From the NCBI RefSeq assembly GCF_021278965.1, contig NZ_CP065589.1, forward strand, positions 1,183,001-1,247,000: a DNA stretch of 64,000 bases, in the 5' to 3' direction. This document shows, piece after piece, positions 47,778 through 52,104 of the stretch. Position numbers and translations under genes: made by a program. The stretch comes from Chryseobacterium capnotolerans. Its GTDB lineage: Bacteria; Bacteroidota; Bacteroidia; Flavobacteriales; Weeksellaceae. The notes under the pieces are model-generated. The model saw nothing but the letters and a program-made list of their open reading frames with translations, did no database searches and was not told the DNA's origin. How positions within the stretch are numbered: position 1 is the first letter of the stretch; the number at the start of each line of letters is the position of its first letter.

Positions 47778-48584
47778 TTACCATCCTTTCACAGCTCCTC
47801 CCTGAAAAACTTCAAGGGCTTTCTTTTCCACTTCATCAGACTGGTAAGCTTTAACGAAGGTTTTTACTTTCTGGCTGTTTTTGTTATCCTGTCTTGCTAC
47901 GACAAGGTTAACATAGGGTGAATCTTTATCTTCTTTGAATATTCCTTGCTTTTCCGAATCCAATCCGGCCTGTGCCGCGAAATTATTGTTGATGATCCCT
48001 ACTACAACATCTCTGTCATCCAAAACCCTTGGGATCTGTGCCCCTTCAATCTCCATAATTTTTAACTGTTTCGGATTCTCTATGATGTCAGTAACCTTTG
48101 GAAGTAGCCCAACTCCTGCTTTTAGTTTGAGGAGTCCGTTTTTCTGCAATAGAAGTAAAGAACGCCCCCCATTGGTAGGGTCATTAGGAATTACAATTGT
48201 GCTCTCATTTTGAAGCTGACTGATATTTTGGATCTTCTTTGAATACGCCACAATAGGGTAGACAAATGTATTTCCTACGATTGCAAGATTGTATCCTCTT
48301 TGCTTTGACTGCTCTGTTAAATAAGGGGCATGTTGAAAAGCATTTGCATCAATGTCTCCATTCACCAAAGCTTCATTGGGAACTACATAATCATTGAAAG
48401 GAATAAGTTCTACTTCAAGGTTATATTTTTCCTTCGCTACCTTTTTAGCTACTTCAGCTACTTCCTGCTCTGGTCCGTAAGTAATTCCAACCCTGATAAA
48501 ATTAGGATCATCCTTTCTCCCTGAACAAGCACTAAAAAGCAGTACTCCCGCAGCAATTAAACCTAAAATCTTTATTTTTTTCAT
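47778..48584 (-). CDS. metQ: Methionine ABC transporter substrate-binding lipoprotein MetQ
   Basis: The start at 48584 (MKKIKILGLIAAGVLLFSAC) gives a clean lipoprotein signal; 13 upstream in-frame residues lack it. The 268-residue NlpA-family protein has RVGITYGPEQEVAEVAKKVA, NGDIDANAFQHAPYL and the end VFQGGAVKGW. It binds D- and L-methionine outside the inner membrane and feeds MetI/MetN. It is the last gene of the operon, 91 bases after metI. Confidence 0.92.
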   Translation of the reverse strand: MKKIKILGLIAAGVLLFSACSGRKDDPNFIRVGITYGPEQEVAEVAKKVAKEKYNLEVELIPFNDYVVPNEALVNGDIDANAFQHAPYLTEQSKQRGYNLAIVGNTFVYPIVAYSKKIQNISQLQNESTIVIPNDPTNGGRSLLLLQKNGLLKLKAGVGLLPKVTDIIENPKQLKIMEIEGAQIPRVLDDRDVVVGIINNNFAAQAGLDSEKQGIFKEDKDSPYVNLVVARQDNKNSQKVKTFVKAYQSDEVEKKALEVFQGGAVKGW

Positions 48585-48675
48585 TCTATTCTTTTTAATT
48601 TGTAAAGGAGTTAAAATAGTCAAATCACAAAAGCAAAACCATCTCTCTTACTCTAAAACTCTATAACCCTCAAAC

Positions 48676-49332
48676 TCATCTATGGTCAAACCTCTTAGAA
48701 AGTCTGTCTCCCATAAACTGGATAATAAACACCAAAAGCACCAATAAGATCAGTACTGTATTCATGATGACAATATCATACCCGATATATCCATACTGAT
48801 ATCCAACCTGGCCTAATCCACCGGCACCTACGGCACCTCCCATTGCAGAGTAACCTACTAATGTGATCAAAGTAATGGTAGCATTATTAATTAATGAAGG
48901 AAGCGCTTCCGGAAGTAAAACTTTTCTAATGATCTGAAAAGGGGAAGCTCCTAATGCTCTTGCTGTTTCTATTAATCCGTGAGGAACTTCGATAAGGCTG
49001 TTTTCAACCAATCTTGCAATAAAAGGAGCAGCACCTACACTTAATGGAACCAATGCGGCATTCACTCCAATAGATGTTCCGGCCAAAATCCTTGTGAAAG
49101 GAATCATCCACACAATTAAAATAATGAAAGGGATCGCACGGAAAATATTCACGATAATGGATAATGCTCTGTAATAGGTTACATTTTCCAACAGTTGCCC
49201 TTTTCTTGTTAAAAATAGCAGAATCCCCACCGGAAGCCCTAAAACAAATCCAAAAAATCCGGACACAAATGTCATATAAACCGTTTCCCAGGTTCCTTTT
49301 GCCAAAAGGGCAAGTACCGCATCACTAAGCAT
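48676..49332 (-). CDS. metI: Methionine ABC transporter permease MetI
   Basis: The 218-residue inner membrane protein has five helices and the BPD_transp motif ENSLIEVPHGLIETARALGA with SPFQIIRKVLLPEA (about 110-145), the coupling helix to MetN. Its start overlaps the metN stop by eight bases, which indicates translational coupling. Confidence 0.94.
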   Translation of the reverse strand: MLSDAVLALLAKGTWETVYMTFVSGFFGFVLGLPVGILLFLTRKGQLLENVTYYRALSIIVNIFRAIPFIILIVWMIPFTRILAGTSIGVNAALVPLSVGAAPFIARLVENSLIEVPHGLIETARALGASPFQIIRKVLLPEALPSLINNATITLITLVGYSAMGGAVGAGGLGQVGYQYGYIGYDIVIMNTVLILLVLLVFIIQFMGDRLSKRFDHR

Positions 49333-50353
49333 ATCCTTTTATTGTATTTTGAATTTTATTCTGATTAAAATAATAAATGGCTTTTTGGTTTTCCTCAGCC
49401 TCTCCTTGAAGTTGCAAAAGTAGTTTACCAAAATTAGAATTCCCAAAATATTCTACATCTGCTTTCAAAAGTTTGTATGGGATTTTATGCTCATTGTATA
49501 ATGCCGAAAGAATCTGTTCAACACTAATATTTTCGCTAAGTTCTATTTCGACCAGTGGAAATAAGCCATCTTTTGGCTCTTTCTGTAGTCTGATATTGAG
49601 TTCCTGTGGCAGGGTCATGACGTCTGAATTTATAAATTGTTGGATCACCGGATTTTCCCGGTTTGAAATGATCTCACTTAAAGTTCCTTTGGCTAATAGT
49701 TTTCCTTTGTCGATTACGGCAACGTGGTTACAAACTGCTTTAATGACATCCATTTCATGGGTAATCAGAAGGATTGTAATCCCTAATCTCACATTAATAT
49801 CCTTTAGCAGCTGTAAAATAGATTGAGTGGTCACCGGATCCAGTGCACTGGTTGCTTCATCACAAAGCAGCAGGTGAGGATCATTGGCTAGAGCCCTTGC
49901 AATGGCCACTCTTTGTTTCTGGCCTCCGGAAAGACTTTTGGGGTAATCATTAGCTTTATCTTCAAGACCTACAATTTTCAGTAATTCGTTGACTTTTTTA
50001 TTGATTTGATCTTTGCTGATGTGATCCAGCTCCAGGGGAAGTGCTACATTATCAAAAACAGTTCTTGAAGAAAGAAGATTAAAATGCTGGAAGATCATTC
50101 CTATTTTTTTACGTTCGTCAGCAAGCTGTTTTGAACTTAATTGAGTGAAATCTCTTCCATTAATAATGATCTGTCCTTCATCCGGTCTTTCCAGCAGATT
50201 GACGGTACGGATCAGGGTACTTTTTCCGGCACCGGAAAACCCTATAATTCCCACAATATCTCCTTTGTCAATATTAAGGCTTACCTGATCCAATGCCTTG
50301 AAAGCCTGTTTCTTCTGGTAGAATGTTTTTGATATATTTTTGATTTCTATCAT
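49325..50353 (-). CDS. metN: Methionine ABC transporter ATPase MetN
   Basis: The 342-residue ATPase has Walker A GFSGAGKST (38-46), signature LSGGQKQR, Walker B LLLCDEATSALD, and a C-terminal NIL/ACT-like domain (about 265-342) that binds methionine and inhibits transport when the cell is replete. The metI gene overlaps it and the EamA gene lies 18 bases upstream, so the four genes form one operon. Confidence 0.95.
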   Translation of the reverse strand: MIEIKNISKTFYQKKQAFKALDQVSLNIDKGDIVGIIGFSGAGKSTLIRTVNLLERPDEGQIIINGRDFTQLSSKQLADERKKIGMIFQHFNLLSSRTVFDNVALPLELDHISKDQINKKVNELLKIVGLEDKANDYPKSLSGGQKQRVAIARALANDPHLLLCDEATSALDPVTTQSILQLLKDINVRLGITILLITHEMDVIKAVCNHVAVIDKGKLLAKGTLSEIISNRENPVIQQFINSDVMTLPQELNIRLQKEPKDGLFPLVEIELSENISVEQILSALYNEHKIPYKLLKADVEYFGNSNFGKLLLQLQGEAEENQKAIYYFNQNKIQNTIKGYA

Positions 50354-50371: not shown

Positions 50372-51370
50372 TTAAATAGGCTGATATCTCTTGCCTGTCC
50401 TGTTAAAAAATCTTCTCACTCTTCTGATTTTGACCTTAGACCGTTTTGAAAGTTTAAAATACTTGGTCACATTGGTCAGCAATACCCCCAGCAATATGAT
50501 TGCCAAACCATATAACTGGCCTCCATTGATACTTTGATTAGCCACAAGCCATCCGGCAATAACCGTTACAATAGGATTAATATAGGTATGGGTGCTTACC
50601 AATGCAGCGGGTTTCACAGACAACAGCCAAATGTACGACAAATAAGCGACTATCGATCCAAAGAAGATCAAAAACAGAACACCTGCCCATGCCGATACAG
50701 GGACGTTTGAGACCGAAAAATCAGTAAATTCCCCTCTGAATAAAGCGACTAGAAAAGCAGCCGCTCCTGCTACAATAAGTTGTTGGGCAATATTCATAAA
50801 GGTAGATTGTGAGGCAGGATTTTTCTTGGAATATAAAGACCCTAAAACCCATGCAATAGAACTTAATCCCAATACCACAAAAGCAATAATACGAAGTTGA
50901 GGATCAGCAGCGGCATGTGCAGCAGTTGAATGTACACTTCCTTTTAAGAAAAAGATCAATCCTACAAAACCAATTGCTAATCCAATCGGAATAAATTTAT
51001 CTGAGAAATAATATTTCCAGTTTTTTCTGTCAATGGCAATAAACCAGAAAGGTCCGGTTGCTATAGAGATCGCAGCTTCAGAAGCGGTTACATATTGTTC
51101 TCCCCAAGCTACAAGGCCTGTTCCGCCAGTAAGAATAAGAACTCCGGTGATTGCGTTTTTTTTCCAGTTAATCAAGGAATTTGCTTTTTCTCCTTTAGAC
51201 AGAAGATATCCGATCATCAAAATCCCCGCTACCAGAAATCTTAATCCCGAAAGAATGAACGGTGGAAAACCTTTCAAGCCAAATGAAATAGCTAAAAACG
51301 TAATCCCCCATATTACATAGATGTTTGTAAATGCCAATGGAACCAGCCATTTGTTTTTAGAATTGTTCAT
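50372..51370 (-). CDS. EamA-family (DMT) transporter, first gene of the met operon
   Basis: The 332-residue protein has ten membrane helices in two EamA repeats: VIWGITFLAISFGLKGFPPF and the second half VPVSAWAGVLFLIFFGSIVA with LLSVKPAALVSTHTYINPIV. The C-terminus is basic. DMT transporters export amino acids or metabolites. Its place before metNIQ suggests export of methionine or a related compound when the importer is also expressed, but this is inference. The leader peptide and terminator stand before it. Confidence 0.88.
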   Translation of the reverse strand: MNNSKNKWLVPLAFTNIYVIWGITFLAISFGLKGFPPFILSGLRFLVAGILMIGYLLSKGEKANSLINWKKNAITGVLILTGGTGLVAWGEQYVTASEAAISIATGPFWFIAIDRKNWKYYFSDKFIPIGLAIGFVGLIFFLKGSVHSTAAHAAADPQLRIIAFVVLGLSSIAWVLGSLYSKKNPASQSTFMNIAQQLIVAGAAAFLVALFRGEFTDFSVSNVPVSAWAGVLFLIFFGSIVAYLSYIWLLSVKPAALVSTHTYINPIVTVIAGWLVANQSINGGQLYGLAIILLGVLLTNVTKYFKLSKRSKVKIRRVRRFFNRTGKRYQPI

Positions 51371-51403: not shown

Positions 51404-51433
51404 TAAAAAGGCCCTACAACTCGGTAGGGCCTT
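51404..51433 (-). terminator. Intrinsic terminator between the Met-rich leader and the eamA-metNIQ operon
   Basis: A perfect 10-bp stem AAGGCCCTAC / GTAGGGCCTT with a 6-base loop is followed by TTTTT on the minus strand. It lies 27 bases after the leader stop and 34 bases before the eamA start, the position expected of an attenuator. Confidence 0.88.
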
Positions 51434-51460
51434 CGAAAGTATGTCATATTAAAAGTAAGG

Positions 51461-51559
51461 TCACCCACAGTATTCTTGATGCACATGCATACACATATTC
51501 TTCATCATGTTTTTAATGATGTGTATATTGGTTGTGGTATTTGTTATTTTTGTGCTCAT
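51461..51559 (-). CDS. 32-residue Met-rich leader peptide
   Basis: The frame starts MSTKITNTTTNIHIIKN and then runs MMKNMCMHVHQEYCG before TGA. Four Met and one Cys fall within seven residues (18-24). AGGAAA lies 12 bases before the ATG, and a TATATTTG promoter box lies 27 bases before it. The terminator follows the stop. This is the layout of a ribosome-mediated attenuator: slow decoding of clustered Met codons under methionine shortage would allow read-through to the methionine importer. It may instead be a small metal-binding peptide (CMHVH). Confidence 0.6.
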   Translation of the reverse strand: MSTKITNTTTNIHIIKNMMKNMCMHVHQEYCG

Positions 51560-51585
51560 TTTATTTTATTTCCTGAATACGTTTG

Positions 51586-51593
51586 CAAATATA
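51586..51593 (-). promoter_or_regulatory. -7 promoter box for the leader and eamA-metNIQ operon
   Basis: TATATTTG on the minus strand matches TAnnTTTG. A weak TTAGTG lies at the distance of the -33 element. Confidence 0.5.
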
Positions 51594-52104
51594 TAATATA
51601 AATTTTATTAGTCCACTAAAAAAGTAGGGTTTTTGAATATTAAATTATTGTTAATGTATTATAGTGTTTGTTTTCAGTGTTTTAAATTTTTATGATTTTA
51701 TATTTTATCATCATTGAAATTTATTTTTCCATTTTTTGATTCATTTTTAAATAAATTTTTGAGTTTTTTATGTTGTGAATAAGGTAAAATAAATTGGATT
51801 TTTTGTGAATTGCGTAATTTTTTTTAATTGAGTTTGAGCGGGAATATTGAGCTTTATCTTTTACTTAGTATTAACCATTTCTAATCTGTATGAATTTATG
51901 ATATATGAATTTTAAAAAAATTATAAGCAGACAGATTAATAGTATAATTTAAATAATTGTTTGTAGTTCCTATTTCAAAATTTCCTTTCGACTATTAGTT
52001 TTCTTGAAACTCGAAAAATAATTGATCAACTTTGAAGTGTGAACTTAATTAGCTAAAGTCAAAAAAAATCCCGATTTTTGCACTCCTTCATTAAACCCGA
52101 GTTC
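51594..52104. other. About 510 bases of very AT-rich divergent intergenic DNA
   Basis: No gene or clear structure. It separates the leader promoter from topB. A GATTTTTG box ends at 52080, 25 bases before the topB ATG, and is a likely -7 element. Confidence 0.45.

Follow-up and report, generated by a model that had tools for sequence, protein, structure and literature searches.

Ribosome-mediated transcription attenuation is classically represented by the leader peptides of the trp, his, leu and ilv operons (PMC2965389, PMC8079986). For methionine uptake, a leader named metL has been predicted before metNIQ in Streptomyces lividans, and is reported to be without a typical Rho-independent terminator (PMC8079986). 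Cysteine leader peptides are known from Actinobacteria, where they precede cys/cbs operons; no terminator was found there in the mycobacterial regions, and no conserved RNA structure is reported upstream of methionine operons (PMC1262725). In Flavobacterium psychrophilum, too, operons for amino-acid biosynthesis have been suggested to be preceded by leader-peptide attenuators, in a paper whose main text does not contain the word methionine (PMC9723704).

Here we describe a leader that precedes an eamA-metNIQ operon in Chryseobacterium capnotolerans, located in a stretch of 64,000 nucleotides (contig NZ_CP065589.1, positions 1,183,001 to 1,247,000), hereafter called the window. Based on sequence comparison, we consider it probable, at roughly 0.84, that this leader is a ribosome-mediated transcription attenuator that responds to a shortage of methionine and probably also of cysteine. 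Like the classical attenuators, it combines a short ORF containing codons of the sensed amino acid with a predicted antiterminator that excludes an intrinsic terminator. Unlike the classical attenuators, its antiterminator arm consists of the leader's final codons together with the stop, and Met and Cys codons are mixed. The leader resembles Streptomyces metL (..GARCMCRRMCAF) in its place before metNIQ and in mixing Met and Cys, but metL is actinobacterial, and the likeness is one of description only (PMC8079986). Like the actinobacterial cysteine leaders, which place an ORF bearing consecutive Cys codons ahead of genes for sulfur metabolism, it is a Cys-containing ORF in front of such genes (PMC1262725). 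The F. psychrophilum leaders likewise come from flavobacteria and are suggested to use the same general mechanism, but they concern biosynthesis operons (PMC9723704). The original prediction, which was made on the window's sequence and had proposed a methionine attenuator, knew of no well-described peptide attenuator for methionine transport in this phylum. Nor was an earlier methionine attenuator before metNIQ in Bacteroidota found among the listed matches of a literature search that reached few subscription journals and no supplementary files. The proposed mechanism is of a well-known kind, and its place before metNIQ in Bacteroidota is without earlier description among these matches.

All features of the locus lie on the minus strand, in the order operator-like site, TATATTTG box, ORF, terminator, eamA, metN, metI and metQ. 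The operator-like site is a palindrome of the form AGTCTAY-N7-RTRGACT with two mismatches, which overlaps the promoter (51608-51630; genome positions 1234608-1234630), and the -7 promoter box TATATTTG, read from the sequence, is located at 51586-51593. The leader peptide ORF of 32 codons plus a TGA stop codon (51461-51559), which was taken from the ORF list and followed up by peptide search, profile and pN/pS analysis, encodes MSTKITNTTTNIHIIKNMMKNMCMHVHQEYCG. There are 26 bases between its stop codon and the terminator stem, and 34 bases from the U-run to the eamA start codon (ATG) at 51370. The first gene of the operon codes for an EamA-family transporter (50372-51370; PF00892). It is followed by metN (49325-50353), coding for the methionine ABC transporter ATPase, for which TIGR02314 was the best NCBIfam model, with 442 bits against a cut-off of 500 for that model, and which contains a NIL domain (PF09383). 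The permease gene metI (48676-49332) scores above the cut-off of the methionine-permease model NF008049, and the putative metQ (47778-48584 when read from an inner ATG, with a TTG at 48623 listed as another start) would code for the substrate-binding lipoprotein, an identity assigned from its position and look. The frame, terminator, promoter box and eamA-metNIQ genes of the original prediction were thus all recovered where it had placed them.

A search with the single leader peptide recovered relatives within the same genus. Using a 12-row profile, 166 of the 173 Chryseobacterium genomes were matched at E<=1, a limit that admits chance matches. A 39-row profile, built from 39 of 40 leader peptides (L106 was left out, and four rows were short by two residues at the start), matched 163 of the 173 genomes at E<=0.01 and only 1 of 147 genomes from the family's other genera. 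Eight of the ten unmatched Chryseobacterium genomes were without MetI, and the other two contained diverged leaders (L206, ..KMYCNMCVFQHYSG; L207, ..RMMMHCCARVYMNFSG). Conservation of the leader is genus-wide and follows the presence of metNIQ. A separate collection yielded 26 leader loci, all from Chryseobacterium, which repeat genomes of the same genus. Removal of 12 out of 189 loci (5 with an HMM score <12 and 7 without a listed match) left 177 loci with 144 distinct leaders. At these 177 loci the first gene starts 79-119 bases past the leader stop codon, and codes for EamA in 129 cases and MetN in 46, the rest being one contig end that was fetched twice. Alignment of the upstream regions, which had been suggested as a check, showed that the genus keeps the Met codons, the frame and the terminator, and that many of the remaining codons vary.

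In the window, the run of Met and Cys codons claimed for codons 18-24 (51488-51508, minus strand) reads M M K N M C M, with Met at codons 18, 19, 22 and 24 and Cys at codon 23, and it was borne out by the codon table of the 144 leaders. The window peptide is in fact a weak example of the family, with Lys at codon 20 and His where Pro is conserved. The core codons of the genus read ATG ATG ATG/AAG x x TGT ATG CCT. Relative to the core Cys (position 0, Cys in 137/144 leaders), Met is found at position -5 in 134, at -4 in 143 and at +1 in 141 of the 144 leaders, and Pro at +2 in 140. A second Cys is present at -1 in 63/144, and the residue at -2 varies freely. The distance from the core Cys to the stop codon is 10 codons in 141 leaders and 11 codons in the remaining 3. 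To these data we added a pN/pS analysis of the 102 of 144 leaders with the same length (824 close pairs). In the leader frame the ratio was 0.59 for codons 2-16, 0.41 for codons 17-25 and 0.40 for codons 26-32, the last value being also shaped by RNA structure, whereas the other two frames, for the N-terminal part only, gave 0.96 and 0.97. Since the ratio in the leader frame is below that of the other frames, this frame is under coding selection, and the leader can be regarded as a conserved ORF with codons for the amino acids of the pathway. Of note, the core codon choice TGT ATG CCT is nearly fixed in the genus; the window reads TGT ATG CAT (51485-51493, minus strand).

An intrinsic terminator is present between the ORF and the first structural gene. 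Its stem (51434-51407, minus strand) consists of 11 pairs closed by a six-base loop, and a U-rich tail follows; the 5' arm covers 51424-51434, and the 3' arm with the U-run 51405-51417. In the window this terminator has a folding energy of -18.7 kcal/mol (z -5.4 versus shuffles), and 98% of the stem cells are paired across the leaders. RNAalifold, run alone on the aligned leaders, predicted the terminator only and no antiterminator.

An antiterminator had been missed in the original prediction. We found that the last codons, the stop codon and the next four bases (GUGGGUGACCUU) can pair with the 5' arm of the terminator. In the window the 5' arm of the antiterminator, GTGGGTGACCTT, consists of the end of codon 31, codon 32, the stop codon and the next four bases (51457-51468, minus strand), and its 3' arm is the terminator 5' arm at 51424-51434, so that both structures share this arm and are predicted to be mutually exclusive. 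In general terms, the conserved block GUGGx-UGA-CCUU pairs with AAGGCYYUAC, the 5' arm of the terminator, and many leaders extend this pairing to the loop CAC. When 41 diverse leaders were folded up to the point before the 3' arm of the terminator is made, the antiterminator pairs had mean probabilities of 0.49-0.75, and apart from these and their neighbour pairs no helix between core and arm exceeded a mean probability of 0.25. A column count showed 91.6% of the antiterminator cells paired, against at most 54.8% in slid versions, with changes on both sides in three pairs. The covariation score of 0.049 was exceeded by two of the slid versions (0.084 at -3 and 0.052 at +2), and the column count alone is not decisive. 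The pairing register shifts among leaders (GUGGU/ACCAC, GUGGG/CCUAC, GUGGA/UCUAC), and therefore energies were compared in place of columns. For 143 of the 144 leaders (L179 was missed by the pattern), which gave 66 unique pairs, native partners had a mean energy of -10.89 kcal/mol versus -9.90 kcal/mol for swapped partners, and none of 2000 swaps did as well. This statistic ignores the tree, the sole guard being the same comparison for 15 segments of the leader. The four segments containing GUGGx gave z-scores of -7.2 to -8.2, and the 11 without it -1.3 to +2.4. Compensatory variants were also found, such as GGAGU/ACUCC, AUGGU/ACCAU and GCGGA/UCUGC. The conserved core UGUAUGCCU can pair with the terminator arm as well, at about -7 kcal/mol; this pairing showed no co-evolution in the swap test (segments at stop-36 and stop-30).

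The antiterminator intermediate of the window by itself reaches -7.9 kcal/mol (z -0.22), which makes it no stabler than shuffled sequences and far less stable than the completed terminator. The switch therefore has to operate while the RNA is still being transcribed. Classical attenuators contain a 1:2 protector or pause hairpin, although not every member does. Here, in contrast, there was no conserved hairpin of this kind in the folded region, from core to arm, of the 41 leaders. The sequence AUGACAUA, located between the antiterminator arms (51440-51447 in the window, minus strand), is strongly conserved in most aligned leaders and is perhaps a pause site or mini-hairpin.

Outside Chryseobacterium, metI was present in 37 of 147 genomes from the family's other genera, and in 6 of 295 genomes drawn from the class, 3 of which belong to the genus itself. 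In genus g28 of the same family, leaders were found in all four metI-bearing genomes (out of six), ending in ..M/IIMCYQMAMPFSIVSGD or ..MIMCLCMAMPCPVVSGD. The arm AUC(G/A)GGUGAUU, which spans the final codons together with the stop, pairs there with AAUCCAC(C/U)GAU of the terminator, and the variable pair is G-C in three genomes and A-U in one. In genus g43 (same family), the one genome that contains metI has eamA-metN arranged as in the window. Its eamA is preceded by the leader MKIPQKHWALDKQIINYKMIMCCHIHLSHCCCN, with the core MIMCC without Pro, and by a terminator, and the arm UUGCUGUAA at the last codons pairs with the terminator 5' arm. In genus g3 of the same order, which is presumably Flavobacterium, 41 of 249 genomes contain metI. 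Of 30 loci examined from these 41 genomes, 27 had a leader, for example MKKENQKMNNYYRYSMMCCVAVMAFIDLA, with MMCC..M and without Pro. In a control for chance, small frames with at least four Met/Cys in eight residues were present in 27 of the 30 real regions upstream of metN in g3, compared to 13 of 1800 dinucleotide-shuffled versions, and a chance ORF was rejected for these regions. The element GAUCUGGCU was kept even in four loci with a changed frame (L263, L266, L275 and L278), in which the peptide ends before most of it. The constraint thus acts on the RNA, since the element persists where the reading frame has changed. In 26 of the 27 loci (L264 was missed by the pattern), GGC pairs with GCC of the terminator with a mean probability of 0.99 in the short folded stretch.

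In f55, a different family, 22 of 151 genomes contain metI, and a leader was found in 2 of the 22 loci; in two others (L283 and L298) there is no more than a small frame, recovered under a less strict limit. One f55 genome (G940, locus L280) contains two leader-terminator units in tandem before a single metN, the first with the core MMAYCCMMMP, and the stop-codon arm of each unit pairs with its own terminator. The fourth g29 genome has MVMNCNGMHSLV (L221). Judged on 300-470 bases upstream of metN, and partly by eye, there was no clear leader in g22 (8 genomes), in three of the four g29 genomes, in one genome each of g41 and g50, in 20 of the 22 f55 loci and in 3 of the 30 g3 loci. Cys codons are found beside Met in all five lineages with a leader. 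Genus g30 has a different structured leader, itself conserved, upstream of metN (L212-L215, L217-L220, L223, L224, L231-L237 and L244), in which a long-range helix, ACACTAT/ATAGTGT, is followed by a terminator. The helix encloses an element resembling GTTTGTTGC, in many cases translated as Cys-Cys, and has compensatory versions in L217 (ACACCAT/ATGGTGT) and L224 (ACATTAT/ATAATGT), and a mismatch in L215.

In the mechanism that we propose, RNA polymerase would transcribe the short ORF with its Met- and Cys-rich core. If charged tRNA is sufficient, the ribosome would arrive at the stop codon and cover GUGGx-(stop)-CCUU, the terminator would form, and transcription would end before eamA. When Met, and probably also Cys, is short, the ribosome would stall on the core and leave the arm free to pair with the terminator 5' arm, so that transcription would run on into the import genes. 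With a ribosome footprint of the usual size, the geometry would fit both states. Ribosome stalling, the signal and the direction of control are what we infer from the features described above. Methionine is the presumed signal because the codons and the methionine-transport genes agree, and the presence of Cys beside Met in five lineages, and likewise in the Streptomyces metL prediction, points to a role for both sulfur amino acids, with their shortage being read together. The conserved Met codons, frame and terminator, and the co-evolving antiterminator, support the methionine attenuator of the original prediction, the methionine response itself being inferred. The Bacteroidota would thereby gain a methionine attenuator that is backed by comparison and whose antiterminator is specified, so that paired mutations can test the mechanism. 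We give even odds to a broader proposal, in which the Bacteroidia have a family of sulfur-amino-acid attenuators that count Met-tRNA and Cys-tRNA with a core like MM-x-CC-M, use an arm of the last codons and stop codon, and are kept before metNIQ in several genera amid drift of sequence and frame, with one genome having a tandem.

A -7 box of the form TA(T/C)(C/A)TT(T/A)GC, which we take to be the promoter type of the phylum, precedes 143 of the 144 leaders. The palindrome in its loose form likewise accompanies 143 of the 144 distinct leaders, 91 of them with the full left arm, and its distance to the -7 box downstream is 16-17 nt in the 142 leaders measured; the left arm in the window is degenerate (ACCCTAC). 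A genome-wide search gave 16 palindrome matches versus 19 for a reversed-pattern control, and because this list of sites is not above chance, the operator claim rests on the genus-wide conservation at the leader promoter. A DNA-binding regulator may act at this promoter as a second layer. It could also be that the ORF is incidental, and that a plain terminator follows a short unregulated transcript that is controlled solely by the DNA operator, which the nearly constant overlap of palindrome and promoter in Chryseobacterium would favor. This is very unlikely, since it leaves the coding selection, the conserved Met and Cys codons and the co-evolving antiterminator without a cause, and none of the 4 g28 and 30 g3 loci, where leaders occur in 4/4 and 27/30, has the palindrome form upstream of metN. 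An alternative RNA-based control, by a SAM riboswitch, a T-box or another known RNA family in place of a leader peptide, might be expected from the three SAM-I riboswitches that scored above the cut-off elsewhere in the same genome (L301, L302 and L303, outside the leader locus). We regard this as even more improbable, given the frame-specific coding selection and the outcome of the Rfam searches, in which one tRNA was the only family at gathering score in the window, and nothing relevant appeared at E<=1 in five leader loci.

Two other explanations assign a role to the peptide itself. In an attenuator that is otherwise the same, a small molecule such as methionine or SAM could cause the nascent chain (MMMxCCMP) to arrest the ribosome, in place of a wait for charged tRNA. 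Consistent with this are the Pro following the last core Met in 140/144 leaders and a core-to-stop distance that hardly varies. On the other hand, core position -2 is free, the MMCC..M of g3 and the MIMCC of g43 are without Pro, and the common part is Met plus Cys, which makes peptide arrest unlikely, though less so than the operator or riboswitch explanations. The original prediction had offered a small metal-binding peptide (CMHVH..C) as a competing idea, prompted by what in the window reads CMHVHQEYC. This fails in the comparison: the first His of CMHVH is replaced by Pro in 140/144 leaders, His is not conserved in the genus (for example, CMPLYRNFSG), one Cys is conserved, and the C-terminal codons carry the antiterminator RNA, so that we find a metal-binding role scarcely credible.

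Several methionine-supply controls can be compared within this one genome, namely the SAM-I riboswitches, the possible DNA operator and the leader. The SAM-I riboswitches precede a MetX-like gene and two TonB-receptor genes. Sites of the form AGTCTAC-N7-GTRGACT occur in the same genome in the gap that separates an Rrf2-family gene from a TauE-type permease gene, before a peroxiredoxin gene and before TonB-receptor genes. These palindrome sites may form a sulfur regulon, and it is a guess that the Rrf2 protein binds the leader palindrome. The palindrome is shared with the window by loci L190, L191, L194, L196, L198, L199 and L202, and its form is also found upstream of metN in L230, L281, L290, L295 and L298. 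At L303, the palindrome precedes the SAM-I riboswitch of a TonB-receptor gene.
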